Notes: generated from the letters alone by a model not told the origin. Shown: positions 3 to 54,256, numbered from the stretch's first letter. The stretch: 64,000 nucleotides of DNA from Gammaproteobacteria bacterium (GCA_022826245.1 JAJDVG010000002.1:62001-126000), one strand, 5' to 3'. Program-made: numbers and translations.

Positions 3-212
3 CAGCAGTGGCAGGTCGAGGGCGGCGCCCCCAATGCACTGATTCGCCGCGGCTGGAACAGGAATTCGATCCCCGCGGGCATTCGCGTTCACGTCGAGGG
101 CTTCCAGGCGCGGGACCGCTCTTTCCGCGCGAGCGGCCGCGAAGTCACGCTGCCTGACGGTTCGAGCCTGTTCATGGGCTCGGTCGGTATCGGCGCCCCC
201 AGGGCAGAATAG
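3..212 (+). CDS. DUF6152-like small exported protein, C-terminal part (truncated by window start)
   Basis: Own translation: QQWQVEGGAPNALIRRGWNRNSIPAGIRVHVEGFQARDRSFRASGREVTLPDGSSLFMGSVGIGAPRAE*; matches C-terminal half of the five complete copies (N.L.R.GW.RNS...G..V.V.G..A.D.S). Confidence 0.75.
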   Translation, partial: QQWQVEGGAPNALIRRGWNRNSIPAGIRVHVEGFQARDRSFRASGREVTLPDGSSLFMGSVGIGAPRAE

Positions 213-281
213 GACTGCGCCAGCGAAGGCTGTCCTCGACCGCAAATCAATGCGGCGTGGACAGCGCCTGGCGGCTGCGCC

Positions 282-1418
282 TTACTCCAACTCGTTGATA
301 TTGAAGATTTCGGCGCCCTCTTCCGGAGGGCCGTAGACGTTCATGCCGCCGCGCGGCGGGATCGGCAGGCCCGCTGCGATCGCCTCCTCGACCTGCCGTT
401 CGTAGGCGCGCTCTCCGCTCAACGAATGCCCGACCGCCCCGTTGCCCTCGTGGCAGGAGTACTCGTACGTCTGGTAGTCCGGCTGGGCCGTGATCATGAG
501 ACGGACGGTGAACGGCGCCGTGTACGTGACGGGATCCTCGACCGTCGCGATGTACTCGATCATGTCCGGGTCGACGCGCGTCAGGCGCTCCGTGATCGTC
601 ATCCGCTCGCTGTGGCGAGTACCGTTGCCGTTGGCGCCGATGCTCGTCTCGTCGGTGAAATTTTTCGTTTCGATCACGAGCGTATCGCCGTCCCAGTAGC
701 CGCGCGCGTTGCCCATGTATTGCCGGATGTCGTCGCTGACGTGAGGCCGTCCGTCGAGCGGGACGATGCGCGTATCGTGAATCATCTCGTAGCTGATGGC
801 GAAAGTGTCGGGCGTCTGCGCGATCCTGAGCCCGTTGCCGTAGATCACCGGCAGGATGGAGCCCATGACCCCGCGCGTGATGCAGCGGTCGTAAAGCGTG
901 AAATCCTCGAACCGTTCGAACGGCCCCGGGCCGAAGGTGCCGCGGTCCCGATTCCCCGCTCTGGCCCGGCCGGCTTCGGTCATCTCCGGTATCCGCCCGT
1001 CGGGCGGATCGACGACGAGCGAGGTATAGCCGAAAGTACGGATACCCCATTCATTGCGCAGGAAGGTTTCGGTGTTGACGGCCCGGTCCATGCCGGCCTC
1101 GTCGCGACCGGCCCGCTCGGCGAATTCCTCGGGCGTCAACGATTCGCGCGTGCCGTAACGCGGGTTGCGGCTCGTGCCGACACCGCGCATGTCGTCGGTG
1201 CTCCACACACCTTCGAAGCTCGGATCTCCCCAGGACGTTCTCGGCGTCTGCCAGTTCGGGTCCGTAAGCGCCGCGATCGTCGTTTCGGCCGGAACCGCAC
1301 GGATCGCCGAGGGCTCGACGCTCGACGGTCCGCCCGGCCCCTGCGCCGCTACAACGCCTGAATGCAATGCCGTGACTGCAAGTACCAACCCTGCAGACGA
1401 AATCGGGACGCTACGCAT
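282..1418 (-). CDS. Exported protein, WDGDTLVVET-type family
   Basis: Signal peptide; 'GYWDGDTLVIETKNF', 'YDRCITRG', 'YEYSCHEGN', 'TVEDPVTYTAPF' shared with paralogs in this window. Confidence 0.8.
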   Translation of the reverse strand: MRSVPISSAGLVLAVTALHSGVVAAQGPGGPSSVEPSAIRAVPAETTIAALTDPNWQTPRTSWGDPSFEGVWSTDDMRGVGTSRNPRYGTRESLTPEEFAERAGRDEAGMDRAVNTETFLRNEWGIRTFGYTSLVVDPPDGRIPEMTEAGRARAGNRDRGTFGPGPFERFEDFTLYDRCITRGVMGSILPVIYGNGLRIAQTPDTFAISYEMIHDTRIVPLDGRPHVSDDIRQYMGNARGYWDGDTLVIETKNFTDETSIGANGNGTRHSERMTITERLTRVDPDMIEYIATVEDPVTYTAPFTVRLMITAQPDYQTYEYSCHEGNGAVGHSLSGERAYERQVEEAIAAGLPIPPRGGMNVYGPPEEGAEIFNINELE

Positions 1419-1527
1419 CTCTGCCTCTCCTTGCCGCTTGCCCGCGTCGTATCGAGTTCCGGCTCAAATGGGACATGGCCCGAGCCGATCGGCCGACCGC
1501 TTCACGAATAGAATATTTCATTCACCG

Positions 1528-3267
1528 TCAGTTCTCTATCGGCAGGGCGAATACGAACACGTTCGATCCGCCGGTCGTGGGCTCGAACTCCGGCAACAGC
1601 CTGCCGGCCGTCGCCGCGACCAGCGACGGCCCGGTGCTTACGGCGACGTACTGGCGCCCGTCAACGGCAAAGCTGATCGGAAAACCGCTGACCGGGGAGT
1701 CCAGATTCGTTTCCCACAGGATCTCGCCCGTCTCATCGTCGAACGCCCTGAATCCCCCGTTCGAATCGCCCCCGAATATCAGGCCGCCGCCCGTGGCGAC
1801 GAGGGACAGGGCCGCGGCGCGCTGATCGAACCGCCACAACGCTTCGCCGGTCTCCGCCGATACCGCCCAGATCGAACCAAGCTGATCGGTGTTCGGCGCC
1901 AGTTGCGGCGGCATGTCCAGTCCGTAGACCTGCGAGGGATCGCGCTCACCGGTCTGGACGGACGCGTCCATGCAGGTGTTCTGCATCGGGACATACATGG
2001 CGTTCGTCAGCGGACTGTAGGCGCCGGCCGGCCAGTTCCGGCCGCCCGCCGCGGCCGGGCAGATCGTGATCTGCTGGCCTGCGGCCGTGAAGAGCGTATC
2101 GGGATTGACGGTGACCTTGCCGGTCGCACCGTCGATATCGCTGACGACATTCTGGAAAAGCGTTTCGCGCGCCCACAGAAATTCGCCCGTGGCCCGGTCG
2201 AGGGTGTAGACGATTCCGGTCTTGCCGGGAATCCCCGTGACGACCTGGCGGCGCTCGCCGGGCTCGATCGCCGGGTTGACCCACGGTACTTCGTCGGGAC
2301 TTGGCGCAACAGCCGTGTCGACGAGCACCCGCTCGAACGGATGGTCCAGGTCCCAGTGATCGACGACGTGCTGGTAGTACCAGACGAGCTCGCCGGTCTC
2401 GCCATCGAGCGCGAGCGTGGAATTGTGGTAGAGGTGCTCGTTGTCGTTGCCGCCGAGAATGAACTTCGGCGCAGGAATGGTTACCGACGTACCGATATAG
2501 ACCATGTCCAGTTCCGGGTCATAGCTCGGCACCATCCAGGTTCCGACGTGCCAGCGCTCCTCCAGCGGTACGTCGCCCCAGCTCTCGTCGCCCGGCTCGC
2601 CAGGCCGCGGGATCGTCCTGGCACGCCAGAGTTCCTCGCCCGTGCGCGCATCGTGCGCAGTGACGACGCACGACTCGTGGGTGGCGGCCGGCTGGCACTG
2701 GCGGCCCGTGATCACCCTGCCGTTACCGATGATCGGACCCGAGCTTGCCCGCGCCGGCAGCGATGCCTCGAGAACCGGCGTCTCCCAGACCAGTTCGCCG
2801 GTCCGCGCATCGAGCGCGTACATCTGATTGTCACCGCTCCCGTTGATGATCGTGTCGCCCCAGATCGCGATGTTGCGGTTGGTACCGCCGCGCGCGCCTT
2901 CGGGGTACTCGCGTTGGTATTCCCAGAGCAGGTCGCCCGTTTTCGCGTCGAACGCCTGGATATAGTCGTTCGCGTTCGGCAGGTACATCACGCCGTCATA
3001 GACGAGCGGCGTACCCTCGTGGATACCCGTTCCGACCGGGTGCTGCCAGACGAGTTCGAGTTCCGAGACGTTGGCCGCATCGATCTGGTCGAGCGGGCTG
3101 TATCCCCAGCCGTCGGTCGTACGCCGCCACGAAAGCCAGTCGCCGGGGGCGGGAGACTGCAGCATCGCGTCGGTCACCGGGACGAACTCGCGTGCCGATT
3201 GAGCGCCCGACTGCAAGCTCAGGAGCAGTGCGGCGGTTGCCGCCGCAACTGTGCGAGTGTTTTTCAT
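1528..3267 (-). CDS. PQQ-dependent dehydrogenase (quinoprotein, methanol/ethanol dehydrogenase-like)
   Basis: Repeated beta-propeller blades (ALDARTGELVWE, AFDAKTGDLLWEY, GGLIFGGDSNGGFRAFDDETGEILWE) and 'GFPISFAVDGRQYVAVSTG'; start placed at MKNTRTV with signal peptide. Confidence 0.88.
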   Translation of the reverse strand: MKNTRTVAAATAALLLSLQSGAQSAREFVPVTDAMLQSPAPGDWLSWRRTTDGWGYSPLDQIDAANVSELELVWQHPVGTGIHEGTPLVYDGVMYLPNANDYIQAFDAKTGDLLWEYQREYPEGARGGTNRNIAIWGDTIINGSGDNQMYALDARTGELVWETPVLEASLPARASSGPIIGNGRVITGRQCQPAATHESCVVTAHDARTGEELWRARTIPRPGEPGDESWGDVPLEERWHVGTWMVPSYDPELDMVYIGTSVTIPAPKFILGGNDNEHLYHNSTLALDGETGELVWYYQHVVDHWDLDHPFERVLVDTAVAPSPDEVPWVNPAIEPGERRQVVTGIPGKTGIVYTLDRATGEFLWARETLFQNVVSDIDGATGKVTVNPDTLFTAAGQQITICPAAAGGRNWPAGAYSPLTNAMYVPMQNTCMDASVQTGERDPSQVYGLDMPPQLAPNTDQLGSIWAVSAETGEALWRFDQRAAALSLVATGGGLIFGGDSNGGFRAFDDETGEILWETNLDSPVSGFPISFAVDGRQYVAVSTGPSLVAATAGRLLPEFEPTTGGSNVFVFALPIEN

Positions 3268-3340
3268 TGGCATTCCCCGGCACTCCGGTCTGATGTCCGG
3301 AAAACCTGTTTTCAAGTTGCGTTCGCTTGCGCAGCCGCGC

Positions 3341-4480: not shown

Positions 4481-4763
4481 GGTGTCTTTCCCCCCTGATA
4501 GCCTTGCCGGCTATCGGCTGATGCGGCAGATAATGGAGTTTGAGTTCTTTACCCTTGCTCGAAAGTTTCTACGCGCGCACGCCGGGTCTGTCAAGGTCGC
4601 CGGATCGACCGCGCGGGCGCCAATTCGCCCTGCCTGACGCCACGTCGAGCAATCGGTCGCGCTCGCTTGCGGCTAGAATGTCCGGACCAGCAATCTGCGG
4701 AACTGCGTCGCACGAAAGTTCGCGTTGCGGCCTGCAGTCTCCTCGAGTCACGGACGCGACCGC

Positions 4764-5966: not shown

Positions 5967-5996
5967 GGCGCCGTAAACAGGAAGTCCCCGAGTTCC

Positions 5997-10110: not shown

Positions 10111-12543
10111 CTACTCCCTCGTTTGCGCGATGCCTTGCACCGCGTCTGGTTCAGCTAACTTGGTCCGCATCTGGAACGGCAGACTGTCCACGATGCCCAG
10201 TACGATCGACATCATAGTGTAGTCCTCCTGAGCGGCATTTCGCAAGATTCGTCGGACCTGCGGCATGTCGGCCGGTTCGAGCCCCCGGCCGATGGCGTAG
10301 ATCAACAATTTTTCGGCAACCGTACCCGCGAACACCTCGGGTTGCGAGAGGATCGCTGCGCGCAGCGCCGCGGGCCCATCGACCGCGGTGCCGTCGGCAA
10401 GCACGCCAGCGGAGTCGATCGTCAGCCCTTCCCTGCTGGTCTCGCGCCATTGGCCCACGGCGTCGAAGTTCTCAAGCGCAAAACCGACAGGATCGATGTT
10501 GTCATGGCAAGACGCGCACTGGGGACTCGCCCGGTGCAACTCAAGCTGTTCGCGAACCGTCGAAGGTCTGCCCACGGGCACGCTTTCCGACAGATCGGGA
10601 ACTACCGGCGGAGGCGGAGGCGGCGGACTGTTCATCAGGTTCGCAAGAACGTATTTGCCACGAATGATCGGCGACGTTCGAGTCGCCGCCGAGGTCAACG
10701 ACAGCAGACTGCCGTGACCGAGCAGACCCCAACGGTTCGGGTCCGTCAATTCCACCTGGCGAAAGCGCGTACCGTAGACGCCGGGGATATCGTAATGCCG
10801 GGCCAGACGTTCATTGACGAATGTGTAGTTTGCGTCGAGCATCTCGAGCACGCTGCGGTTCTCCCTGAGGACGTGCCCGAACAGCATCTCGGTCTCGCGG
10901 CGGAACGCCTTGCGCAGGTTGTCGTCGAAGTCCGGAAACAGCAGAAGGTCGGGAATGACGCGCTGTTCGAGATTGCGAAGCTGCAGCCACTGTCCGGTGA
11001 AATTGGCGACGAGCGAATCGGCGCGCTCGTCCGCAACCATGCGCCTGACCTGGGCTTCGAGCACACTCGGCTCACGCAAACTTCCCTCGATCGCGAGATC
11101 GAGCAGTTCGTCGTCGGGGATGCTCGACCACAGGAAGAACGACAGCCGCGACGCGAGTTCGACATCGCTGATCGCGTGGCTCGCGCCGACCGGCAGATCC
11201 TCAGAGTCGTGCTCCGCGCGGAACAGGAACGACGGGCTGACGAGAATCCGCGCAAGGCCCGCGCGTATGCCGCTGTCGAAGTCGCCGCCGCCGTCGCGCG
11301 CATCGTTATAGAACGCGAGCGGCGCCTCGATATCGGGCGCGTCGACGGATCGGCGGAAAGCGCGCCTGGCAAGTGTCGAGAAAATCTCGGCCGCACACGG
11401 CGCTTCCTCGACGGCGGACGCGGGTTCGCAGACGAAAACTCGCTCCCGGCTGGGCGTGTCGCTGACTCCGGTCACATTGAACGGGCCGGTAATCGTCGCC
11501 GTTTCGAGCCTCGGATATCCCGCGATATTGTGTACGTCCTGGGAGGCGCGCAGCGGCGGTTGCCAGGCATTCTGTTCCTTCTCCGGCCGCTCGACCCAGG
11601 TGAACGCGAGATCGTGCGGCCCGGCGCTTATCGGTATCGGGGGCGATGTCATCAACTGGTCGATCTCGAGTTTCGCGAGTACCTGGTCCTCGATCTGCAG
11701 GTTGTGGATGTCGGGGCCGCCGATCATCGCGGAGTAAACCTGCTCCCCGTCGACCATGATCACGAACTCGTGCGGAGTGTCGTGACCCTCGACACCGAAG
11801 TAACCTTCGATAAGGCCGAAAATCAGCCGGCCCGACAGCACGTAATCGCCATCGGCCGCGAAATTGTGACGAACGAGCACACCGCCGCGCGTGCCGAGCG
11901 GCAGACCCTCCAGGTGCTTGTCCTGCGTGACCTCCATGGCGATCGTATACGGGTAGGCCAACGGCACCGCCTCGGCATCCCCGACGGCCAATGCGCTGAC
12001 CCTGAGCGCAGCGGTGAGGTAGCGCTCGAGCAGCAATGGCGACGTCGTCAGCGCGGAAGCGATGTTGTCGAAGCCGAAGTCGCCGCCGTCGCTCGGCAGC
12101 AGTTCCATCACGTCGACTTCGATGCCGAGCAGATCGCGTATGGCATTGGCATACTCGGCACGATTGAGGCGGTGCACGAGATGCGTACCGGAATAGGGTT
12201 CCGCGTTCGCCGCGGCATCCAGCCTCGATTCCAGCGCCGCAACGAACTCGGCTCGCGCCGCAGCTTCGGGTTGCGGCTCGCTGCGCGGCGGCATCATGGC
12301 CACGCGGAGCTTTGCTATCGCGGCCTCGAACAGCGCCCTGTCGGCAACGACATCGGACGGGTTCAAGCCCTCGAACGAAACTCCGCCGGTGACCTCGTAG
12401 TCGTTGTGGCACTCGACGCAGTAACTGTCGAGCATCGCCCAATGCTCGGTGAGTGCCGCTTCAGGGGAGCGAGCTTGCCAGACATACGCGGCCACCGCCG
12501 CTACGGCTACGGCGCCCGTCCCGAGGTAAAGCTGGGTTTTCAT
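10111..12543 (-). CDS. DUF1592 (DUF1587/1588/1585-type) c-heme protein
   Basis: CxxCH motifs 'YCVECHNDYEV' and 'CASCHDNIDPVGFALENFDAVG'; 'HRLNRAEYANAIRDLLG', 'NSPPPPPPPVVPDL'. Confidence 0.9.
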   Translation of the reverse strand: MKTQLYLGTGAVAVAAVAAYVWQARSPEAALTEHWAMLDSYCVECHNDYEVTGGVSFEGLNPSDVVADRALFEAAIAKLRVAMMPPRSEPQPEAAARAEFVAALESRLDAAANAEPYSGTHLVHRLNRAEYANAIRDLLGIEVDVMELLPSDGGDFGFDNIASALTTSPLLLERYLTAALRVSALAVGDAEAVPLAYPYTIAMEVTQDKHLEGLPLGTRGGVLVRHNFAADGDYVLSGRLIFGLIEGYFGVEGHDTPHEFVIMVDGEQVYSAMIGGPDIHNLQIEDQVLAKLEIDQLMTSPPIPISAGPHDLAFTWVERPEKEQNAWQPPLRASQDVHNIAGYPRLETATITGPFNVTGVSDTPSRERVFVCEPASAVEEAPCAAEIFSTLARRAFRRSVDAPDIEAPLAFYNDARDGGGDFDSGIRAGLARILVSPSFLFRAEHDSEDLPVGASHAISDVELASRLSFFLWSSIPDDELLDLAIEGSLREPSVLEAQVRRMVADERADSLVANFTGQWLQLRNLEQRVIPDLLLFPDFDDNLRKAFRRETEMLFGHVLRENRSVLEMLDANYTFVNERLARHYDIPGVYGTRFRQVELTDPNRWGLLGHGSLLSLTSAATRTSPIIRGKYVLANLMNSPPPPPPPVVPDLSESVPVGRPSTVREQLELHRASPQCASCHDNIDPVGFALENFDAVGQWRETSREGLTIDSAGVLADGTAVDGPAALRAAILSQPEVFAGTVAEKLLIYAIGRGLEPADMPQVRRILRNAAQEDYTMMSIVLGIVDSLPFQMRTKLAEPDAVQGIAQTRE

Positions 12544-17671: not shown

Positions 17672-18088
17672 TTACTCGTCGTCGGATTCGTCCCGGACAC
17701 CGCCGCCGAAGACCGCCTCACCGTTCTCGCGGCTGATGCCGCTGGCACGCGCAACCGTGGGCCGGCCGCGCGCCCGGTGACCACTGACGAGGATCCGGTC
17801 GCCGGGTTGCAGGTCGTTGCGCGACCAGCCGTTTCGCATCAGCGAATTGGGGCTCGACAATTCGAAGTCGTATGTGACGGTTTCGCCGTTCTCTTCCACG
17901 TCAACGTGGAGCCAGCCGTGCGGGTTCGTCCACTGGATCGAATTCACCACGCCCTCGATCCGGAACGGTTGATTGATGTCGAACTCCGAAGCGAAGGAAT
18001 GGTGGGCCGACGACGATGCCGGCAGCAGCCCGGTGACGATGATCAGAGCGCCGCAAGCTGCCACGAAACGAAGAATCGATGCTGTCAT
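17672..18088 (-). CDS. DUF6152-like small exported protein
   Basis: Signal peptide ending ...SSSA then HHSFASEFD; 'GVVNSIQWTNPHGWLHVDV', 'RNGWSRNDLQPGDRILVSGHRA'. Confidence 0.82.
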   Translation of the reverse strand: MTASILRFVAACGALIIVTGLLPASSSAHHSFASEFDINQPFRIEGVVNSIQWTNPHGWLHVDVEENGETVTYDFELSSPNSLMRNGWSRNDLQPGDRILVSGHRARGRPTVARASGISRENGEAVFGGGVRDESDDE

Positions 18089-18144: not shown

Positions 18145-18993
18145 TCACTCGTCGGAATCGTAATAGTACCGGCTCGACACCTCGTTCTCGATGCATACGA
18201 ACTCGATCAGACTCGTGTCGAGCAGAATCCGCTGATTGACACGGACCGTGAACGGTTCCGTGTACGCCATCGGGTCCTCGATCGTCACATCGATCTCGAG
18301 CGTGCCGAAATTCGGCCGGCGGAAACGCTCGGTGATCTTGCCCGACGAGGTCAACGGGCTGCCGTTGTAGTCGAGCCAGACGTCATCGCGAAAGCCCGTG
18401 GTCTCGACGACGAGCGTGTCGCCGTCCCAGTGGCCGACGGAATAGCCGAACCACCACGGCAGGGCATCGCTGCCGGGCAATTCCCGGCCGTCGAGAAACA
18501 CCTGCCTCAGACCCGAGTTCGCCTCGTTGATGATCAGCACGAGTTCGGGCGTCTGCACGATTTTTCGCGGCTGCGGGTGCAGGTGGTAGTGCATGTGACC
18601 CATGGGCAGGCAATAGCCGTCGGGGTTGCCGCGCGCCATGTCGTCGATGCGCTCCTGGGTGATTCGGTCGCCCCACTCCGTGTAGGGCGGATCGAACTGG
18701 GCGCCGATATCGAAGAAGTGCGCGACCGGAGGTGAACCTTCCGGCGGATCCGCGTTAGGGCCCCGCCCGAGTTGCCCGTCGACGGGTCCGCGGCGCCCGC
18801 CTACTGCTTCCCAGATGCCCGACAGATCCGGCCGACCATCGGCCGTCGTCGGAGTCGGGCCTTCGAGATCGGGTTCCCCGTCGGCTGTCAACGGCACGTT
18901 GGGCGTCGGATGCGGCGCCCACTGTGCGAGCGCGGTTCCGGCTCCGAAGGAAAGGGATGCGGTCAAGGCCGCTGCAGACTTCCAGCCCTTCAC
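18145..18993 (-). CDS. Exported protein, WDGDTLVVET-type family
   Basis: 'TADGRPDLSGIWEAV', 'GYCLPMGH', 'GHWDGDTLVVETTGFRDDVW', 'EFVCIENE'. Confidence 0.8.
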   Translation of the reverse strand: MKGWKSAAALTASLSFGAGTALAQWAPHPTPNVPLTADGEPDLEGPTPTTADGRPDLSGIWEAVGGRRGPVDGQLGRGPNADPPEGSPPVAHFFDIGAQFDPPYTEWGDRITQERIDDMARGNPDGYCLPMGHMHYHLHPQPRKIVQTPELVLIINEANSGLRQVFLDGRELPGSDALPWWFGYSVGHWDGDTLVVETTGFRDDVWLDYNGSPLTSSGKITERFRRPNFGTLEIDVTIEDPMAYTEPFTVRVNQRILLDTSLIEFVCIENEVSSRYYYDSDE

Positions 18994-21251: not shown

Positions 21252-21635
21252 CTACTGGAACTCGCGGCCGTCCTCGAGCCTGACCCGTCGCAGAAAGTAG
21301 ACGCCCGGATCTTCGCGAAGCGGAGAACCGATCGCGGTGATCCTCGTCCCGGGCTCGATCATGGCCGGCCGCAAACCCCGGCGAACGAGCATATTGGCGG
21401 GCGCGCCCTCGATGAAGGTAATCGTCTCCTCATCGCCGTTTTCAAGCGTCCGCGTCAATGTCATCGCGATATGCGGATTCTTGAAATTCAGGGTCTCGAC
21501 GACGCCTTCGAAGGGAATCTCCTGACTGAAATCGTAGATCGCAAATGAATGGTGCCCGAGTGCGGGCGCCGCGATCATTGCGATTACCGCAAGGACCGCA
21601 GGCGCGAAGCTCGGACCGCGCGATGCTCTTCTCAT
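21252..21635 (-). CDS. DUF6152-like small exported protein (divergent copy)
   Basis: Signal peptide ...APALG then HHSFAIYDF; 'GVVETLNFKNPHIAMTL', 'NMLVRRGLRPAMIEPGTRITAIGSP'. Confidence 0.78.
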   Translation of the reverse strand: MRRASRGPSFAPAVLAVIAMIAAPALGHHSFAIYDFSQEIPFEGVVETLNFKNPHIAMTLTRTLENGDEETITFIEGAPANMLVRRGLRPAMIEPGTRITAIGSPLREDPGVYFLRRVRLEDGREFQ

Positions 21636-21842: not shown

Positions 21843-22583
21843 ATGAACTGCACAAGCATCAGGTCGGTTTTCGCAAGCATGGTTCTGGTGGCAGCAGGAA
21901 GCAGCGCGAATGCGCAGATCGTGGCCGAACCGGATTTCACCGGAATCTGGATGCCGCTGATCGAGAGCGAATCATCGGTCGAGCGGATCTCCTGGCCGTC
22001 TGAACTACCGTATACGGAATACGGGCAGGCGCTCTGGGACGCGTACGCGGCCGAGTTCGACCCGGTAACCGACGATCCGGCAAGGTTCTGCGTTCATCCG
22101 GGCATGCCGAGCTCGATGCTCGGCACGCCGACATTTCCGATCGAGATCTTCCAGCGTCCACACGACCTGACGATCTTCCTCGAGGCGTATTACCAATACC
22201 GAAAGATCTACATCGAAGTCGAGGACCGCGAGCCTCCCGAGCCGATTCTGTCGTCCCGAATGGGCTATTCGACCGCTCATTGGGAGGACGACACGCTCGT
22301 CGTCGAAACGTCCTGGCTCGCCGCACGGGACAAGGGACGCATCGTGATGTCGGCGGATGCGCGCGTCGTCGAGCGCATCCACATGGAGATCGATGACGAG
22401 GGTCGGCGACTGCTGGTCGACAACATCAGTTTCATCGACCCGATGGTCTACTCCGAACCCATCGACATCCGCGGCATCTGGTACTACTCACCGGATACAC
22501 CGGTCATGGAATACGTGTGCAGCCAGAACATCTATGACGAGCACATCGCAGCAAAGCGCGCGGCCGCTGCAGCCGCGCCTTGA
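21843..22583 (+). CDS. Exported protein, WDGDTLVVET-type family
   Basis: 'EPDFTGIWMP', 'RFCVHPGMPSS', 'AHWEDDTLVVETSW', 'MEYVCSQN'. Confidence 0.78.
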   Translation: MNCTSIRSVFASMVLVAAGSSANAQIVAEPDFTGIWMPLIESESSVERISWPSELPYTEYGQALWDAYAAEFDPVTDDPARFCVHPGMPSSMLGTPTFPIEIFQRPHDLTIFLEAYYQYRKIYIEVEDREPPEPILSSRMGYSTAHWEDDTLVVETSWLAARDKGRIVMSADARVVERIHMEIDDEGRRLLVDNISFIDPMVYSEPIDIRGIWYYSPDTPVMEYVCSQNIYDEHIAAKRAAAAAAP

Positions 22584-22642: not shown

Positions 22643-23563
22643 ATGACGAAGCTCAACAAGCCTTGTCTTTCGCTCGGCGCCGTGCTGATCCTCGCTGGCG
22701 CCGCGATGCCGCTCGAGCAGTCAGCGGCACAGCGTCAGGCGCCGCCGCCCCCGTCGCCCGAAAAACAGGCGATGATCGACCTCGGAATCGAGCACGAGAC
22801 CGCTCGAGGCCTCTATGAGTACTTCAGGAGTGAAGCCGACGGCGACGGTACCCTGGCCTGGGAGGATGTGCCCGACTGGAGCGGCGTATGGACGCGGGAG
22901 ACATTCGTGTTCTTCTGGGACGGCGATCAGGGCACCATGGACACGCTGCCGACGGCGAAGCTGACCCCCGAATACGAACGCAGGCTCATCGAGAAGCTCG
23001 ACCGCATCGACCAGGGTATCGAATACGACCCGCTGAGTGCGGGCGAACCGGCCGGAATGCCGCGCTGGATCTCGGAGCCGTTCCTGAAGGACTTCGCCGT
23101 CACGCCGCAGCAGACCTGGCTCATCAACGAGATGATGAACGAAATCCGCCGCGTCTACACCGACGGCCGCGACCATCCGCCGTCCGAAGACGCCTACCCG
23201 CTCTGGCTCGGCGATTCGATCGGATTCTGGGATGAAGACCGACTCGTCATTCATACCAACCAGATGCGCGACGGGCAGTACCAGCGCATTCAGCCGGAAT
23301 ACACCGACCAGGTCGAAACCGTCGAGATCTGGCAGAAGACGGCCGACGACACGATCGAGGTCGACATCTGGGTCTACGACCCGCCGGTTCTCGTTGAACC
23401 TTGGTACACTAGACAGGTTTTCAAGAAGCTGACCAATGACGATAACGGGCTCAGGATTCGCTATTGGCACTTCAACGAGAACCAGAACAACGCCGTGTTC
23501 GAGACCGACGAAGGCAGTTCGGACTTCGCTGACTTCACGTTCACGGACCAGGACGACAACTGA
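22643..23563 (+). CDS. Exported protein, WDGDTLVVET-type family (divergent, cysteine-free mature form)
   Basis: 'VPDWSGVWTRE', 'GDSIGFWDEDRLVIHTNQMRDG', 'IRYWHFNENQNN'; signal peptide. Confidence 0.72.
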   Translation: MTKLNKPCLSLGAVLILAGAAMPLEQSAAQRQAPPPPSPEKQAMIDLGIEHETARGLYEYFRSEADGDGTLAWEDVPDWSGVWTRETFVFFWDGDQGTMDTLPTAKLTPEYERRLIEKLDRIDQGIEYDPLSAGEPAGMPRWISEPFLKDFAVTPQQTWLINEMMNEIRRVYTDGRDHPPSEDAYPLWLGDSIGFWDEDRLVIHTNQMRDGQYQRIQPEYTDQVETVEIWQKTADDTIEVDIWVYDPPVLVEPWYTRQVFKKLTNDDNGLRIRYWHFNENQNNAVFETDEGSSDFADFTFTDQDDN

Positions 23564-23582: not shown

Positions 23583-23969
23583 ATGAAGATCAAGTTGGCA
23601 GTGACACTCGCGAGCGCGGTTCTCGTTGCAACGACAGCGCTCGCCCACCACTCGACGGTCATGTTCGACGAGGAACGGGAAGTTACCGTGACGGGCGTCG
23701 TCAAGGAATTCCAGTACACGAATCCACATTCGTGGCTGCTCGTCGACGTCACGAACGAAGACGGTTCGGTCACGACCTGGGGCTTCGAGGCCGAGGGCCC
23801 GAGCACGCTCATGCGGGCAGGTATCCGCAGAAGCGATTTCTCGCCCGGCACTGAGCTTACGATCACCGGGCATCCGATGAGGGACGGACGTCCCGGCGCG
23901 GCGTGGTTGCACGCGACCCGCGGCGATGGCACTGAATTCGATCCGCGCTCCGGGTTTGCGATCCGCTAG
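23583..23969 (+). CDS. DUF6152-like small exported protein
   Basis: Signal peptide ...TTALA then HHSTVMFDE; 'GVVKEFQYTNPHSWLLVDV', 'LMRAGIRRSDFSPGTELTITGHPMRDG'. Confidence 0.82.
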   Translation: MKIKLAVTLASAVLVATTALAHHSTVMFDEEREVTVTGVVKEFQYTNPHSWLLVDVTNEDGSVTTWGFEAEGPSTLMRAGIRRSDFSPGTELTITGHPMRDGRPGAAWLHATRGDGTEFDPRSGFAIR

Positions 23970-25677: not shown

Positions 25678-26439
25678 CTAGCGGGCGCGGCAGGGTTGGG
25701 GGTCCCAGCCGCTGCGGTCGGTCTGTCTGCGGAAGTTGCTGCTCGTGATGACGCGGGTCGTGAAGTATTCGGGATCGTCCACGATGCTCAGAACGGTGAG
25801 CCACACGGTGCCGTCGGGGTGGGTCAGAAGATCGAAGTACTCGGTGAGCCGGGCGTTCTCACTGTACGGCACGCCGTTTTTCCTGAGATAACCGGCGCGC
25901 ATGGCTGTCGTCTCGACCCTGAGCGTGCCGTTCGCGGCCGGCTGGCCGCGGCCGCCGCCGTGCATGACCCACTCGGCTTCCGAAACGCCCTGCCAGGTCG
26001 GCTCGGCGGGTTCCGGGGCGCCGTCGAAGTGGAGCATGCGGATCTGGCGTCCCGCATCCGTTTCGATCTCGAGCGTCGAATCGTCCACCCACGAGATTCT
26101 GAGCCGGCCCGGCACTCGCATGATCGCCGCGGCGCCGTAGGACCTGCACTCATTGCCTTCGGCCTCGTCGCGCTCGGGGTCCCAGGCATCGGCAGCCGCC
26201 CGGGCGGCCTGGCTCAGCGGCAGCCCGGGAAAATCGTTTCTCGGCGGCGTCACCATCCTGAACCGCCAGTCCTCGGTGACGATCGAAACCCATTGGCCGG
26301 TCAGATCGATGGGCGCCATGTCCCGGGCCGGCCCCTCGGGGCCGCGAGCGCCGCCGAACTGCGCCATGGCCTGTCCGTGGATGACGAAGCCGATGAAAGC
26401 CAGCGCAAATGCCGCAGTGATCCGCCGCGCCGCGTTCAT
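25678..26439 (-). CDS. Exported protein distantly related to the WDGDTLVVET family
   Basis: 'PIDLTGQWVSIVTEDWRFRMVTPP', 'NECRSYG', 'WVDDSTLEIETDAGRQIRMLHF', C-terminal 'PCRAR'. Confidence 0.65.
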   Translation of the reverse strand: MNAARRITAAFALAFIGFVIHGQAMAQFGGARGPEGPARDMAPIDLTGQWVSIVTEDWRFRMVTPPRNDFPGLPLSQAARAAADAWDPERDEAEGNECRSYGAAAIMRVPGRLRISWVDDSTLEIETDAGRQIRMLHFDGAPEPAEPTWQGVSEAEWVMHGGGRGQPAANGTLRVETTAMRAGYLRKNGVPYSENARLTEYFDLLTHPDGTVWLTVLSIVDDPEYFTTRVITSSNFRRQTDRSGWDPQPCRAR

Positions 26440-27428
26440 TGTTCGTCCCCTGCCTGGCCGCTCAAACTTGCATATGCCGCTTCGACAAACCGTTCGGTCG
26501 TCCAGAACCCTTCGGTCGAGCCGTAGACCGGGTCGTAGTCGCGCGTCGGCCCGGCCGCCTTGACCTGTTCGAGCGTCATTCCCTCATCGATCATGCTCGT
26601 GAGGCGATCGTGGATGACCAGCACCATCTCCCGGTAGTCGAGAACGTCACCGAGACCGGACAGCCGGCCGTGACCCGGGACCACGAGCGTGCCGCCGTCC
26701 TGCCCGTACACGGGGATGATGAGGTCGACGATCGAGTTGAGCGCGTCGATCACGCCCCGGTAGCTGCCGCCGGCGCCGAGGTCGATTACGGGATAGTTTG
26801 TGGTGGAAAAGACATCGCCCACCGCGATGACATCAGAGCGGCGGAAGAACACGATCACGTCGCCGTCGGTGTGCGCCCGCGGCTGATGAACGATCCGTAC
26901 ACCCTCGCCGTTGAAGTAGAGCCGCTTTTCGTCGTTGAAGAAGGTATTCGTCGGCCAGAGCGTCGACGGAACCGCCTGTTCGCCTGTCGTTGCGCTCAGG
27001 CGCAGCAACACGTTCTCGTGGGCGATCACCTGCGCGCCCGCCCCGACATAGGGCACGGGCCCCGGCATGTTGCCGCCGATGACGGTGGCGCCGCCAGCAC
27101 GCAGGTTCTCGTTGCCGCCGATGTGGTCGCCGTGATGGTGCGTGTTGACGATGTAGCGAATCGGCAGATCGCTGAGTTCGGCGATCGCGGCGGCGATCCT
27201 GTCCGACAGCGGCGCAAATTGCGTATCGACGATGAGCACGCCGTCGTTGCCGATCTGGACGGTGACGTTTCCGCCGGCGCCGACGAGCATGTAAATGTTG
27301 TCGGTCACCCTGAGCGTACCGATCTCGACGCTGCTGAAGTCCTGCTGCTGCGCATCGAGCCCGCCGGCCGGCAATACCGCGGCGACGGCAAGAACCGCGA
27401 GCCCCGCGCATGCACGAAATCCCGTCAC
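26436..27428 (-). CDS. MBL-fold metallo-hydrolase (exported)
   Basis: 'IVNTHHHGDHIGGNENLRAGGATVIG', 'HTDGDVIVFFRRSDVIAVGDVF', 'VPGHGRLSGLGDVLDYREM'; overlaps next gene start. Confidence 0.9.
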   Translation of the reverse strand: MTGFRACAGLAVLAVAAVLPAGGLDAQQQDFSSVEIGTLRVTDNIYMLVGAGGNVTVQIGNDGVLIVDTQFAPLSDRIAAAIAELSDLPIRYIVNTHHHGDHIGGNENLRAGGATVIGGNMPGPVPYVGAGAQVIAHENVLLRLSATTGEQAVPSTLWPTNTFFNDEKRLYFNGEGVRIVHQPRAHTDGDVIVFFRRSDVIAVGDVFSTTNYPVIDLGAGGSYRGVIDALNSIVDLIIPVYGQDGGTLVVPGHGRLSGLGDVLDYREMVLVIHDRLTSMIDEGMTLEQVKAAGPTRDYDPVYGSTEGFWTTERFVEAAYASLSGQAGDEQ

Positions 27429-27453
27429 TTGCGCACCTCCCTGACAGCCCCGC

Positions 27454-28326
27454 TCATTGTTCCGGCGCCTCGGGCGGCGGCATCTGCCCGATCGCCTCCA
27501 TGTACTCCGGGTACATCGTCGCCGCGCCGCCCTGGGTCGCCTCGTAGGGAATGCCGTGATTGATCGAATACTCCGTCAGATAGGGGTTTTCGCCCGGCAG
27601 ATAGTGCGGAAAATAGTTCTCGGGCGTGTCGGTCTCGATCACGCTCTCGCAGGGATAAGGGCCCATGCGGCCGCTCGGATTCAGGACGTAGTCGCGGTTG
27701 CGGAAGAACGGCTCCTCGAGGTACGCCGGATCCTCGATGTAGACGTGCCAGGTCAGGATGTCCTCATGGCGCGTGAAATGCTCCGTGAGCGTCGCATTCC
27801 AGCTTCGCGCCACGCCGTTGCGGCGCAGCCAGCCTTCCTTGAGATGCGTGGTGCGTACCTTGAGCGTCCGCCCGATGAATTCGCCGGTCGAGAAACCCAT
27901 GGCCGTATGCTGTGCGTATTCGGGCGGATGCTGTCGCCCGTCCATCCAGATCGTGCGCGTGGTGCCCCAGGCAAAATGCTGCACGTGGATCGCTTCGAGC
28001 TGTTGCGTGTCCGGATCGACCGTCTCCCAAATCCTGATCTGCGCGAAGCTTGCGGCGTAGTCGACCGGATGGACGCGGCACTGATACAGCGGCAACGAAA
28101 GAATCGAGGCGCTCCATGCCTGCGCCCGCATGCGGTTCGCGTCGTTCAGCGGCAGACCGCCGTAGTCGCCGAGTTCAGGACCAGGTAACCGGTCCGGCTG
28201 GTCCTCGTGATACATGCCGGTCCACTGGCCGGCGAGGTTCACCTGAGCCATCGCCGGATCGCCCGTGTACGCCGCACCGAGCACGACGGCAAGCCAGACC
28301 GTCCCGAGCGGGAGGACGTTTTTCAT
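27454..28326 (-). CDS. Exported protein distantly related to the WDGDTLVVET family
   Basis: 'VNLAGQWTGMYHEDQPDRLPG', 'YQCRVHP', 'EFIGRTLKVRTTHLKEGWLRRNGV', 'YPCESV'. Confidence 0.65.
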   Translation of the reverse strand: MKNVLPLGTVWLAVVLGAAYTGDPAMAQVNLAGQWTGMYHEDQPDRLPGPELGDYGGLPLNDANRMRAQAWSASILSLPLYQCRVHPVDYAASFAQIRIWETVDPDTQQLEAIHVQHFAWGTTRTIWMDGRQHPPEYAQHTAMGFSTGEFIGRTLKVRTTHLKEGWLRRNGVARSWNATLTEHFTRHEDILTWHVYIEDPAYLEEPFFRNRDYVLNPSGRMGPYPCESVIETDTPENYFPHYLPGENPYLTEYSINHGIPYEATQGGAATMYPEYMEAIGQMPPPEAPEQ

Positions 28327-48158: not shown

Positions 48159-48202
48159 GCCGCATCGCCGCCTGCGTGGACGGCACGCGGCCCGACCGGG
48201 TT

Positions 48203-48535: not shown

Positions 48536-48799
48536 GAATGTCTCCTTGCCACGATCAGCCGCTCATGCGGTTCTGCCCGCTACCGGCTGCCTGCGCCGGC
48601 ATTGACCGGGGTCACGCGCGGTAGCGAGGCGTTAGTTTACGCCATAACGGACGAAACGTGCACCGTATTCTTTACACTCGTGAAAGTCGGGCTGTGTGTC
48701 CGACCCGATGATGGCTGCGCGCTGCGGCAAGCCGTACGGGCATTCGCGTTTTCTGGTACTTTCCCCGTCAGTCGGGAGTAATAGCGACAAGTGGGCGAT

Positions 48800-49186: not shown

Positions 49187-49212
49187 CCGGCAGGACCGAC
49201 ACGACCGACCCG

Positions 49213-50112
49213 ATGACCGACGCCATATGCACCCGGCACGAGACGCTTGTGGCGGCGACGACGCGCAGCGGTCGGCGCATGATGGCGTTGCGCGAGGTTG
49301 TGAAACGCCGCGCAGCGGGAACGACGTTGCTGGCTGCTCTGGCCCTCGCGGCCTGCGACCCCCGGCCGTCGTCATCCGCCCTCGGGAGTTCCGACGGTAT
49401 ATCGCCCCCGGAGACGGCGGTCCGGGCGACACCCAGATACGACGACGGACTGGTGCGCTTCGATCGCGTTCCCGGCGAAAAGGGCTACTGGGCTCAGGCA
49501 AGCGCGAGTTCGCTGGTCGAGACGGGCGTCGACGTGCCCATGAACGACATCGGCCTGCTCGACGACCTGGCGGATGCCCCCCGGGTCGCACCGTTCAGGC
49601 CATGGGCGCTTGCGCTCTACGAGCACCGGCAAGGGAACGGGCTCGCGGACGATCCCACGCAGTTCTGTCTGCCGCCGGCCGGACCTCGTCATCTGCATGC
49701 GCCCGGTGGATTTCGGATCATCCAGGACCGGAATTTCGATCGCGTCTACCTGATGTTCGGGGGCGGCAACCGCAACTGGCGCGTGATCTTTCTCGATGGC
49801 CGCGAGCCTCCCGATCCCGAAGAGGTCGTCGGAACCTACTACGGCTACTCGTCGGGCCACTGGGACGGCGACACGCTCATCGTCGAATCGAGCGGTTTCA
49901 ACGCGCGGTTCTGGTTTTCCAACGGCGGTCTGCCCCACACCGAAGCGCTGCACCTGACGGAGCGCTTCTCGCGCCCCGACCATCACACGCTCCGATACGA
50001 AGTCACCATCGACGATCCATACACCTATACACGGCCCTGGAGCGCCGAGTGGACCGTCTCATGGGTCGAAGGGGGCGTAATTCCCGAGCAGTTTTGTGAA
50101 GACCGTCGCTGA
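49213..50112 (+). CDS. WDGDTLVVET-type family protein, probable lipoprotein
   Basis: Lipobox-like LALAAC; 'FRPWALALYEHRQ', 'FCLPPAG', 'GHWDGDTLIVESSGFNARFWFSNGGLPHTEALHLTERFSRPDHHTLRYEVTIDDP', 'EQFCEDRR'. Confidence 0.82.
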   Translation: MTDAICTRHETLVAATTRSGRRMMALREVVKRRAAGTTLLAALALAACDPRPSSSALGSSDGISPPETAVRATPRYDDGLVRFDRVPGEKGYWAQASASSLVETGVDVPMNDIGLLDDLADAPRVAPFRPWALALYEHRQGNGLADDPTQFCLPPAGPRHLHAPGGFRIIQDRNFDRVYLMFGGGNRNWRVIFLDGREPPDPEEVVGTYYGYSSGHWDGDTLIVESSGFNARFWFSNGGLPHTEALHLTERFSRPDHHTLRYEVTIDDPYTYTRPWSAEWTVSWVEGGVIPEQFCEDRR

Positions 50113-50228
50113 GGAGTTCGATGGTATGCCCATGCCGCTGTTCTTCCCGCTTCACCGGCACTTCCCGAAGTCCGCTCCGCAGAGGGCCGCATATGTCACA
50201 ATGCGGTTTTCCGAGAGGTAAGCCGGCA

Positions 50229-50663
50229 ATGGCGACCAACATCGCTCCATGGATTGCGCGGCTGGCGGGTCTGCTGCTGGCAGTATCGCTGCCCGTCCAG
50301 GCGCACCATTCGTTCCGCTCGCAGTACGATGCCGACCAGCCCGTGACGTTCACCGGAATCGTCACGAAGGTCGACTGGATGAATCCGCATGTCTACTTCT
50401 ACATCGACGTGGAAGACGAGGAAACCGGCGCGCTCGAGAACTGGGGATTCGAAATGGGACCGCCGCACATGCTTCAACAGCGCGGCTGGAAGCGAAATTC
50501 CATGCAGATCGGCGACGAAGTCGAAGTTCACGGAACGCGGGCTCGCGACGGCAGCACGACGGCAAATGCGCGCCGGGTCACGTTGACGTCGACCGGGCAG
50601 ATACTCGGTGCGGCGTCAAGCGAAGGGCAGACGATTACATCGGGGGAACAATCGGCCAACTGA
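50229..50663 (+). CDS. DUF6152-like small exported protein
   Basis: Signal peptide ...LPVQA then HHSFRSQYD; 'GIVTKVDWMNPHVYFYIDVEDEETG', 'QQRGWKRNSMQIGDEVEVHGTRARDGS'. Confidence 0.85.
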   Translation: MATNIAPWIARLAGLLLAVSLPVQAHHSFRSQYDADQPVTFTGIVTKVDWMNPHVYFYIDVEDEETGALENWGFEMGPPHMLQQRGWKRNSMQIGDEVEVHGTRARDGSTTANARRVTLTSTGQILGAASSEGQTITSGEQSAN

Positions 50664-50679
50664 GCGGGAACGAATCGAG

Positions 50680-51522
50680 GTGACACGACAGGCTCATCAT
50701 TCACTCACGATGGTCGCGCTGGTCGCGGCGGCCGCGATGGTCGCGCTCGCGGCGGAGCAGACCGCAGCCCAGCAGTCCGAACCGGACACGGCCCGCCCCG
50801 CGCCGCGCTGGCCCGACGGCCGTATCAGCTTCACCGGGCCGGACGGCGAGATCGGCAACTGGGGCGGCCCGCCGACGAGCACGCTCGCCAACCACTACCG
50901 CGAGGGCGCGCTCGGTGATTCCGGCGTCAATCTCGAGACGAATCTCGATGCGGAGGACGTGCCGTTTCAACCGTGGGCTCGCGAGGCCTACGAATACCGG
51001 CAGGCCACCTTCACGAAGGACGATCCGCATACGCGCTGCAAGCCGTCCGGCGGCGCGCGACTGTTCCACACGCCCTATGGGTTCGAAATACTCGACCTCG
51101 GCGACGAAATCATCTTCGTCACCGTCGGCGCGCCGCATTCATGGCGCGTCGTGCACATGGACCGGACCGAGCATCCCGCCGATCTCGAACCATCCTGGTA
51201 CGGCCACTCCATCGGCCGCTGGGAGGACGACACGCTCGTGATCGACACGATCGGTTTCAACGACAGGTTCTGGATTTCGCGCGGCGGATTTCCGCACACG
51301 ACCGAGCTGCACACGATAGAACGCATCTCGCGGCCCGATTTCAACCGCCTGCGTTACGAGATCACGATCGACGATCCGGGCGCCTACACCGACACCTGGT
51401 CCGGCGGCTGGTATATCCCGTGGATAGCGGGCAACGAACCGTTCGACTACCTGTGTCAGGAGAACAACCTCGATGCCGCGCGCATGGTCGGCCCGGATCT
51501 CGACGACGAGTCAGGCGACTGA
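50680..51522 (+). CDS. Exported protein, WDGDTLVVET-type family (GTG start likely)
   Basis: 'FQPWAREAYEYRQ', 'RCKPSGGAR', 'GRWEDDTLVIDTIGFNDRFWISRGGFPHTTELHTIERISRPDFNRLRYEITIDDP', 'DYLCQENNLD'. Confidence 0.82.
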   Translation: MTRQAHHSLTMVALVAAAAMVALAAEQTAAQQSEPDTARPAPRWPDGRISFTGPDGEIGNWGGPPTSTLANHYREGALGDSGVNLETNLDAEDVPFQPWAREAYEYRQATFTKDDPHTRCKPSGGARLFHTPYGFEILDLGDEIIFVTVGAPHSWRVVHMDRTEHPADLEPSWYGHSIGRWEDDTLVIDTIGFNDRFWISRGGFPHTTELHTIERISRPDFNRLRYEITIDDPGAYTDTWSGGWYIPWIAGNEPFDYLCQENNLDAARMVGPDLDDESGD

Positions 51523-51571
51523 AGACGGCGCTTGAGCGAAGCGGCTGACCGAATCCCGAGGGGAAACCGCA

Positions 51572-52843
51572 ATGAGCACTGCAAGACAGGAAATCGCCCA
51601 CAACTGGCCCTTGATGGTCGTCGCATTTCTGCTCGTGTTCTTCGCCTTCGGAGTGCCGACCTACTCGCTGCCGTTCATGTACGGCGCAGCCATGGACGAA
51701 TTCGGCTGGTCGAACGCCCAGGTCAATCTCCTGTCCACGGCGAAGTTCCTGATCGGCGCGGTCGCCGCGCTCGGCATGGGCATCCTCGTCGACAGGATGG
51801 GCGGACGCTGGACGGTGCTCATCGGCGCCGCATCCGGCGGCGTTGCGATGGCGCTCTTCCTCTTCGCGACCAACCTCCCCGTCTACTACCTCGCCGGCGC
51901 CATGCTCGGTTTCTCCGCGTCTTCGATCGTCGCGGCCATGAAGGTCATCGTCGCGCGCCTCTTCGCCGTCAACCAGGGTCTGGCGATGGGCATCGTGCTG
52001 ACCGCCACGAGCTTCGGCGGCGTCGTAATGCCCTGGGTCTGGCCCGTCATGCTCGAGGTCATGAACTGGCGCTACATCATCGCCATGCTGAGCCTCGGTT
52101 CGTTCCTGGTCGCAGTGCCGGCGTGGCTGATCTTCATGGCGACGAGCGCACGCATGCGGGAAGTCGTGAGCGCGCCGTCAGCAGCGCAAAGCGGCACGAC
52201 GATCTGGCAGCACTTCCGCTCGATCAGCCGCGAGCGCGCTTTCTGGCTGATCGCGACCGGGATATTTCTCGTTTCGGCCGTCGATCAGGCGCTGATGCAG
52301 AACTACGTGAACTTCCTGCGCGTCGACAAGGGTATGGACCTGCGCGGCACGATCTCCTGGGCCGGCAGCCTGCTCGCGATCATCGGCGTCGCGGCCAAAG
52401 TCGGTTCGGGCTGGTTCTTCGACCGCTTCTCGATCCGCGGCATCGCGTTCTTCTACTTTCTGCTCGCGATTTCGATCTTCCTCGGACTGCCCGTGGCCGG
52501 AGTCGGCACGCTGCTCGCGTTCATCATCGTGCGCGGCGTCGCCCACGGCGGAATGATCGTCGACGTGCCGATCCTGACCCGGCACTACTTCGGCATGGAG
52601 CGCATCGGGATGACGATGGGGATCATGGCCGTCTGCGTCAATCTCGGCTTCGCTGCCGGTCCGCCCATCTTCGGCTGGCTCGCCGACACCTACGGCAACT
52701 TCAGCGTGGGGATGATCGTTTACGGTTCGATCGCTGCCGTCGCGACATTGACGCTGTTGCCGATCAAGCCGCGCTACTGGGTTTCCCCTGCCGAGCGCCG
52801 CGAGGGCAAGCTGCCGCCGGCGATGCAGCCCGCCGCGGGTTAG
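51572..52843 (+). CDS. MFS transporter
   Basis: 12-TM pattern; 'SLPFMYGAAMDEFGWSNAQVNLLSTAKFLIGAVAALGMGILVDRMGGRWTVLIG'. Confidence 0.9.
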   Translation: MSTARQEIAHNWPLMVVAFLLVFFAFGVPTYSLPFMYGAAMDEFGWSNAQVNLLSTAKFLIGAVAALGMGILVDRMGGRWTVLIGAASGGVAMALFLFATNLPVYYLAGAMLGFSASSIVAAMKVIVARLFAVNQGLAMGIVLTATSFGGVVMPWVWPVMLEVMNWRYIIAMLSLGSFLVAVPAWLIFMATSARMREVVSAPSAAQSGTTIWQHFRSISRERAFWLIATGIFLVSAVDQALMQNYVNFLRVDKGMDLRGTISWAGSLLAIIGVAAKVGSGWFFDRFSIRGIAFFYFLLAISIFLGLPVAGVGTLLAFIIVRGVAHGGMIVDVPILTRHYFGMERIGMTMGIMAVCVNLGFAAGPPIFGWLADTYGNFSVGMIVYGSIAAVATLTLLPIKPRYWVSPAERREGKLPPAMQPAAG

Positions 52844-52868
52844 CGCGGAAAGCTCGCCGCAGGGATGC

Positions 52869-52977
52869 GGGGAGTCGCACTACCGATCGCTTGAGACACG
52901 CGGTGAATACGTCCCTGTACGCTCCGCGCGCATCCTTGCGCGCGAGGGTCTCAAGCGAGTGCTTGTACGGCTACCCT
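52869..52977. repeat. Intergenic nested-hairpin repeat element, copy 2
   Basis: Core CGCTTGAGAC...GTGAATACGTCCCTGTACGCTCCGCGCGCATCCTTGCGCGCGAGG-GTCTCAAGCG, near-identical to copy 1; outer arms partly conserved. Confidence 0.82.
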
Positions 52978-53042
52978 TGACGTTCACGCGAGTGCGTGTG
53001 AAGGACAGCGCTTGCGCTACGGCAGGCGCGGCTCGCAGTCGG

Positions 53043-53801
53043 CTACTGTCCGACCAGGTGGGCCGGATCGAGGTTGTTGTCCTGGCAGAAGTACTCGATG
53101 AACTCGTCGTTCGGATTCCATCGCTTCGTCCAGCTCGTGCTCCACGGTTCGTGGTAGGCGAGCGGGTCGTCGATCGTGATCTCGTAGCGCAGCGTCATGA
53201 GATCCGGCCGTGAGATGCGTTCCACGAGGTGCAGCGCCTCGGTATGCGGGTAACCTTCGCGGTGGATCCAGAAGCGCTCGTTGAAGCCGACCGTGTCGAT
53301 CACGAGCGTATCGCCGTCCCAGCGTCCGACCGAGTGACCGAAATAGCTCGGATTCAGGAAATCGCCTTCCGGATGCGGCCGGCCGTCCATGTAGACTTCG
53401 CGCCAGGGCCTCGTCGAGCCGCCCGAAAGAATGTAGATGCGTTGGATCGACGGCGCTTGCACGATCTGCAGACCGAACGGAACGGCCATCTGCCTCGGCC
53501 CGCCCGGCGGCGCGCAGCGCGCGTGCGGATCGTCCTTCGCGAGCGTGCTCTTGCGGTGCTCGTAAAGCGCGCGCGCCCAGGGTCTGAAAGGAATCTCGTC
53601 GGGCGGCGGATAGTCGGCGCCGCCGACCAGGGGTCCCGAACCGCCTTCCCAGTAGCCCTTGCCGTCTGCGAGCGGCCCGAAGTTCGGCGTTCCGTCCGGC
53701 AGCCTCGGGGTTTGCGCTGCAGCATTGTCCTGCGCAAGCACCGGCCCCGCTGTGAGCAGCAGTGCCGCCGTGAACGCGGCAGCGCGACGACTTGCCGCCA
53801 T
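53043..53801 (-). CDS. Exported protein, WDGDTLVVET-type family
   Basis: 'FRPWARALYEHRKS', 'RCAPPGGPR', 'GRWDGDTLVIDTVGFNERFWIHREGYPHTEALHLVERISRPDLMTLRYEITIDDP', 'EYFCQDNNLDPAHLVGQ'. Confidence 0.82.
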   Translation of the reverse strand: MAASRRAAAFTAALLLTAGPVLAQDNAAAQTPRLPDGTPNFGPLADGKGYWEGGSGPLVGGADYPPPDEIPFRPWARALYEHRKSTLAKDDPHARCAPPGGPRQMAVPFGLQIVQAPSIQRIYILSGGSTRPWREVYMDGRPHPEGDFLNPSYFGHSVGRWDGDTLVIDTVGFNERFWIHREGYPHTEALHLVERISRPDLMTLRYEITIDDPLAYHEPWSTSWTKRWNPNDEFIEYFCQDNNLDPAHLVGQ

Positions 53802-54256
53802 TACTGACTGCTGCCTGCGTTACTGAGCCGTTCTTCGGCCGGTGTCCGCGTGAACAGTTTCTGGCCCGTGCTGACCAGCACAACCGACTGTGCGTTCATG
53901 AGCGCGCTGCCGTCACGTGCCAGAATGCCGTCAACGACCACCGAGTCGCCGATCTTCATCGAATTGCGCGTCCAGCCCCGCCGCATGAGTCCGACCGGTG
54001 ACGTCAGTTCGCAGGCCCAGGTTGCAATCTCGCCCGTCGCCTCGTCCTCGACGTCCAGGTAGAAGTAGGCATGGGGATTGAGCCAATCGATCTTGACGAC
54101 AACGCCATTCAGGGTAACCGGCTTTTCGCTGTCGTACTGCGCCGAAAATGCGTGGTGCGCGACAGCAGGCGTGCCAGCCGAAGCGACCATCAGGCATGCA
54201 CATAGCGCAAGAAATCCGGATGCGCCTTCGTTCACCATCCACCTCCCGCTTTTCAT
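53801..54256 (-). CDS. DUF6152-like small exported protein
   Basis: Signal peptide ...TPAVA then HHAFSAQYD; 'GVVVKIDWLNPHAYFYLDVEDEATG', 'RRGWTRNSMKIGDSVVVDG'; TAATG overlap with downstream gene. Confidence 0.85.
   Translation of the reverse strand: MKSGRWMVNEGASGFLALCACLMVASAGTPAVAHHAFSAQYDSEKPVTLNGVVVKIDWLNPHAYFYLDVEDEATGEIATWACELTSPVGLMRRGWTRNSMKIGDSVVVDGILARDGSALMNAQSVVLVSTGQKLFTRTPAEERLSNAGSSQ

Follow-up and report, generated by a model that had tools for sequence, protein, structure and literature searches.

Recurrent pairing of exported DUF6152 proteins with a family of predicted calycin-like barrels in a gammaproteobacterial genome

DUF6152 and W genes of the window

The window analyzed in this study is a 64,000-nucleotide stretch (G000:C15:62001-126000) of a draft gammaproteobacterial genome (GCA_022826245.1; 3.6 Mb, 62 contigs, 96.5% complete, 0.5% contaminated). 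Genes were called using a simple ORF finder, and family membership was assigned by profile match. Two families recur in the window: DUF6152 (Pfam PF19649), here called D, and the WDGDTLVVET family, here called W. The six D genes of the preliminary description, together with their neighboring W genes, were all recovered in place, the first D being cut by the window edge, and PF19649 matched the D genes of the window above the cut-off. The same description counted seven W genes; the window actually holds ten W matches.

D1 (3–212, + strand) is the 3' part of a gene whose start precedes the window (match C15:61844-62119). It adjoins W1, a secreted, predicted barrel protein of the W family (282–1418, −; the ORF finder places the start at 1208), as had been described, but W1 is convergent with D1, and the probable real partner is a co-directional W gene that lies just upstream, beyond the window edge (C15:60947-61675, gap 169). 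W1 is neighbored by a gene for a PQQ-dependent dehydrogenase (1528–3267, −). D2 (17672–18088, −), with HHSF after the signal peptide, lies beside W2 (18145–18993, −), the protein chosen for the W model below. D3 (21252–21635, −) is divergent from W3 (21843–22583, +), and W4 (22643–23563, +) ends 19 nt upstream of D4 (23583–23969, +). D5 (50229–50663, +) stands between W5 (49213–50112, +) and W6 (50710–51522, +), the latter 46 nt after D5. The start of W7 (53043–53801, −) overlaps the stop of D6 (53801–54256, −), which carries HHAF after the signal peptide.

Two of the three additional W matches are divergent members of the family (25678–26439, −, with GxW, DP, and the C-terminal Cys kept; 27454–28326, −), and they flank a gene for an exported MBL-fold hydrolase resembling SoxH_rel_PQQ (26436–27428, −). 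The W-hydrolase-W cluster (25678–28326, −) contains no D. The third is cut by the window end (63368–64000, −; match C15:125716-126333), and its D lies outside the window. A PQQ dehydrogenase of the glucose/quinate type is encoded at 61381–63297 (−). The window also carries a Planctomycete-type PSD1-5 cytochrome-associated protein (DUF1592/1588/1587/1585/1595; 10111–12543, −) in this gammaproteobacterial genome.

Linkage of D and W within and beyond the genome

Genome-wide, PF19649 gave 91 matches, 90 of them above the 27-bit cut-off, and 112 matches, a few of them fragments at contig ends, were obtained with a W profile based on seven proteins of the window. A W gene was located within 1.5 kb of 80 of the 91 D genes, compared with 8.9 ± 3.2 by chance and a maximum of 22 in 2000 circular shifts. 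When fusions were left out, 55 of 66 D genes were near a W gene (5.1 expected, maximum 14 in circular shifts). The adjacency reported for the window thus exceeds what family abundance yields, and the claim of a recurrent paired exported module, made of two families with no assigned function, is strongly supported. In 25 cases, D is fused in frame to W, with D first every time, as checked by translation. The unfused pairs are mostly in the opposite order (W before D, 34; D before W, 18). Gaps between D and W are mostly short and operon-like, including several 4-nt overlaps. Adjacent unfused D and W genes are co-directional in 54 of 60 cases (divergent, 5; convergent, 1), against 68% of background gene pairs, so the variable orientation noted in the window is real there but is the exception in the genome.

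The copies are highly diverged, with a median identity of 32% for D and 26% for W, which indicates that the duplications are old. Recent mobility of D and W was rejected because copies are only 26–32% identical. Distances among D proteins correlate with those among their partner W proteins (Mantel r = 0.51 for 55 unfused pairs, with 0 of 5000 permutations as high; 0.54 within the W-before-D pairs alone), although paralogues are not independent in such permutation tests. The correlation argues that the pairs were duplicated as units and diverged together. On the D tree, order or fusion state required at least 23 changes (31–38 with shuffled labels), and fusion state alone required 8 (17–22 in shuffles); the tree was a quick one of 100 columns, and these counts are approximate. 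Linkage has therefore outlived repeated reordering. The preliminary description held that the association survived rearrangement instead of descending from one tandem copy; the rearrangement is borne out, but co-duplication occurred as well. Linkage, fusion, operon-like spacing, and co-duplication are shown by these results, and D and W are best read as two halves of one exported module that was duplicated to about 80–90 diverged copies in the genome. The fusions were absent from the preliminary description, as were three features treated below: the predicted His-His at the mature N-terminus, the modeled barrel fold of W, and DUF6644 as an older partner of D.

Some loci depart from the simple pair. 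A tandem W-W protein with two barrels in one chain adjoins a D (L077:13011-14579, −). Two lone D genes of an HHSHGNY type (L101:4947-6011, +; L104:4292-5327, +) adjoin genes for related exported proteins of ~210 aa belonging to no Pfam family, which are possibly a third partner of D.

Both families occur in 18 of 18 genomes of the GTDB family of the source (source included), at 4 to at least 117 copies of D and 3 to at least 90 of W. Neither was found in 11 genomes from other families of the order. Elsewhere in the class, 273 genomes yielded D in only 5, each with one distant copy, and W in only 2, and none had both. Twelve genomes reached via W loci, belonging to Acidobacteriota, Gammaproteobacteria, and in one case Gemmatimonadetes, hold 3 to 148 copies of D; one of the twelve is evidently a same-genus relative already sampled (G304 = G001, with identical match places). 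In a draw of 199 genomes from the phylum of an acidobacterial record (L137), D was present in 22. Of 80 W loci picked regardless of D, 34 lie no more than 1.5 kb from a D gene and 5 contain fusions, and the pairing recurs in Acidobacteriota. Many W genes of Bryobacterales have no D nearby, which indicates that a neighboring D is not required for W to work. One Bryobacteraceae contig carries four tandem W genes and no D (L143:1296-4302, +); W amplifies alone in some Acidobacteriota.

Predicted folds and conserved residues

In all 91 D proteins, His-His directly follows a hydrophobic signal sequence, and position −1 is A, S, or G in 89 of 91; the signal-peptidase-like site was assigned by the −3,−1 rule. 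The His of NPH is 100% conserved among the 91 copies, as is one Gly, and nothing else reaches 100%. HH is in place in 48 of 50 D proteins from other genomes, the exceptions being one truncated frame and one full-length protein. In the latter (L188:3372-4565, +), a DUF6152-W fusion, HH is gone and NPH has become NPS, so that both parts of the putative metal site were lost together in a natural protein. Distant single-copy relatives of D, scoring 40–48 bits, keep HH...NPH. No fusion has D at its C-terminal end although most unfused pairs have W first, which fits a requirement of D for a free N-terminus.

An AlphaFold2 model of a natural D-W fusion (pLDDT 84.7) gave an OB fold for the D part, with NPH in the turn linking strands one and two. 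Foldseek matched the D model to the OB part of PolD, PriB, SSB, and LysRS, and weak Pfam matches were to the OB families tRNA_anti-codon, TOBE, and DUF4131. A comparison of the D profile with PDB sequences gave nothing meaningful. D does not belong to the LPMO and CopC families proper, having neither their Ig-like/CopC fold by Foldseek nor a corresponding Pfam match. The sequences and the model strongly indicate that D is a small OB-fold protein with a signal peptide predicted to be cut exactly before His-His. The conserved residues likewise point to a putative metal site of the N-terminal-histidine type, in which the amino group and imidazole of His1 would act with His2 and/or the His of NPH. 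Copper is the likeliest candidate for the metal at this predicted site.

W gave no match in Pfam, NCBIfam, or PDB sequences, and by sequence or profile it corresponds to no known calycin family. The AlphaFold2 model of W2 (pLDDT 90.3, pTM 0.88) consists of nine strands, and helices are inserted between strands one and two. Barrels of the FABP, CRABP, and CRBP types make up nearly all of its best Foldseek matches, and the fold match is moderate (probability ~1.0, E from 1.2e-3, TM ~0.5 to the target and 0.33 to the query). G36 (100%) and W38 (96%) are conserved and lie on the first strand (36–40). A G-x-W on the first strand is the calycin signature. Cys105 and Cys244 are nearly invariant and probably form a disulfide, judging from their conservation; other conserved residues are R140, E199, and D217-P218. 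These features, read on the model, indicate a calycin/FABP-like beta-barrel for W, one that carries a disulfide and is closed by a helical lid. W would share with lipocalins and FABP/CRABP the barrel, the GxW on strand A, and a lid of helices that connects strand A to strand B. In contrast to these calycins, W lacks a sequence-level match to them, is exported, has a predicted disulfide and a conserved core of ~220 residues, and is fused to an OB domain. By its modeled shape, W is probably a ligand binder, and the ligand to be expected is small and mostly hydrophobic.

The WDGDTLVVET motif was rejected as an active site, as it forms a beta-hairpin in the W model (strands 161–167 and 170–176) and is probably structural. 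A metal-binding or haem barrel was also rejected for W because no His is conserved. Two further fusions of W were seen. In one, W stands behind two domains of the glyoxalase/dioxygenase superfamily in a 578-aa protein (L068:5830-7566, +); in the other, it stands behind a YncE-like/cytochrome-D1-like beta-propeller (L110:5309-6985, −).

Proposed function and competing explanations

Proteins of various folds chelate transition metals through a His at the mature N-terminus, as has been established experimentally (PMC12537917), and examples are the LPMOs, pMMO, and CopC (PMC10952591). The N-terminal-His metalloproteins, comprising the histidine-brace proteins LPMO and pMMO, CopC, PCuAC, YcnI, DUF4198, DUF6702, and anglerases, share with D export, a mature His1 (predicted for D), and a further invariant His; one class is fused to membrane permeases (PMC12537917). 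The described proteins are Ig-like or beta-sandwich, whereas D has a predicted OB fold with His-His at positions 1–2, a calycin-like barrel as partner, and ~90 copies per genome. D may represent a further N-terminal-His class on an OB scaffold. Pfam gives DUF6152 no function. In the open-access papers searched, we found no mention of DUF6152 or the W motif, no description of the W pairing, the fusions, or the mature HH site, and no work joining "histidine brace" with "OB-fold".

We propose that D and W form an exported metal-center and ligand-barrel module that was duplicated so that each pair serves a different ligand, a proposal to which we give an even chance of being right. For the metal, the ligand, and the chemistry of the module, we infer the following course. 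Removal of the signal peptide would place His-His at the mature N-terminus of D and expose a free amino group. The amino group and imidazole of His1, with His2 and/or the NPH His, would then build a metal site, most likely for copper, while the W barrel would hold a small, mostly hydrophobic ligand. In the periplasm, the metal center of D would act on, or be delivered with, the ligand of its own W. A different ligand for each pair would explain the expansion of the barrel on an unchanging metal site. The likeliest chemistry would be metal-dependent oxidation or capture of small organics feeding periplasmic quinoprotein metabolism; we rank such oxidation or capture with W first and metal handling second. 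A bolder form, which we consider doubtful, would make DUF6152 an OB-fold class of copper mono-oxygenases or peroxygenases, with each W presenting a different lipophilic substrate and with ~90 exported copper enzymes forming a P450-like repertoire.

D also has another partner. In 7 of 7 annotated plasmid records, from Sinorhizobium, Comamonas, Paracoccus, Azospirillum, and Caballeronia, a single DUF6152 gene is directly followed by a gene for a small membrane protein of the DUF6644/DUF2214 type. The source genome has one DUF6152-DUF6644 unit (L067:4956-5825, +), and relatives appear to carry a D followed by two DUF6644 genes (e.g., G001:C10:76518-77921 and G010:C77:4022-5437). This operon, in which DUF6152 is joined by one or two DUF6644 genes, is conserved and widespread in Proteobacteria. 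In the pair of Paracoccus denitrificans (WP_011751034 and WP_011751035), D likewise has HH...NPH, and the unit is a single-copy operon; a small membrane protein takes the place of W. Since the D-DUF6644 unit is the older, single-copy form, the pairing with W seems to be a second use of D that was then amplified, and this older form suggests an origin of D in metal handling at the membrane. It is possible, though we lean against it, that D is a copper/nickel chaperone or sequestering protein similar to CopC, YcnI, or DUF6702, and that W is a scaffold or delivery partner; metal would be supplied to exported enzymes or removed, with no ligand chemistry. Most known N-terminal-His proteins outside LPMO and pMMO are metal carriers (PMC10952591, PMC12537917), the older D sits with a small membrane protein, and siderophore/TonB genes are near in 2 of the 7 records. 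However, ~90 diverged copies are hard to explain by mere metal supply, and W diverges while having no conserved metal ligands. No copper gene recurs beside the D-W pairs. DUF6644 is not detectably CopD-like: a relation to CopD was not supported by hhalign (probability 6%, E 0.006). One sub-threshold CopD match lies inside a DUF6644 protein. The DUF6644 profile gave nothing meaningful against PDB sequences.

The surroundings of the pairs bear on a second explanation, namely that D-W serves the quinoprotein pathways of the periplasm (PQQ dehydrogenase, SoxH-like MBL) as a redox or structural accessory that passes electrons or holds the substrate of a neighboring enzyme. In ~0.9 Mb of sequence taken in stretches around D and W genes, the units lie among diverse genes, housekeeping genes included, and we found no dominant catabolic neighborhood. 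Within 1.5 kb of D or W are 7 of the 14 copies of an MBL-fold family (1.8 expected, P = 0.001) and 8 of the 23 PQQ dehydrogenases (3.4 expected, P = 0.013); neither P value is corrected, and these two families were chosen after the fact. The MBL family is closest to the SoxH-like metallohydrolases of the quinoprotein relay, with a score far below the NCBIfam model cut-off. SoxH_rel_PQQ metallohydrolases and PQQ dehydrogenases are thus recurrent neighbors, but as families they are separate from D and W, and their scores are below the curated NCBIfam cut-offs. The placement near oxidoreductases, transporters, and hydrolases noted for the window is weakly upheld by this modest enrichment. The accessory role also draws on the fusions of W to the YncE-like propeller and to the glyoxalase/dioxygenase domains, one each. 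Most units, however, stand alone and adjoin neither enzyme, and among 80 loci of other genomes a PQQ match was present at 5 and an MBL match at 3. We regard this role as unlikely.

It is very unlikely that D and W are surface, adhesion, or recognition proteins diversified by host or phage contact, with structural His residues. A large paralogous expansion, export, and diverse genomic contexts would fit such proteins. However, three His residues, unchanged in ~160 highly divergent proteins and located at the extreme N-terminus, are unlike structural residues. Moreover, PADLOC gave no match to an anti-phage defense model, and we saw no recurrent surface-anchoring signal. An adjacency that merely reflects abundant families, tandem duplication of recent date, or mobility would suit two families with ~200 genes, but it is already refuted by the circular-shift null and runs against the old duplications, the fusions, and the linkage in other phyla, leaving it a negligible probability.

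The module of metal center and ligand barrel that we favor, paired, fused, and amplified ~90-fold, matches nothing described in the open-access papers searched, and its metal chemistry would be of the known N-terminal-His kind. The linkage and fusions of D and W suggest that a large system beyond the inner membrane has so far escaped description. Together, these two exported and unstudied families account for ~200 genes in a genome of 3.6 Mb, and they are found again across two phyla whose bacteria are largely uncultured. If only metal is handled by D, a function for DUF6152 would still have been found and a new calycin-like family named. If D is a metalloprotein, N-terminal-histidine metal chemistry would gain a new scaffold whose dedicated partner for ligand binding comes in many natural variants, and this scaffold may be useful for selective oxidation.
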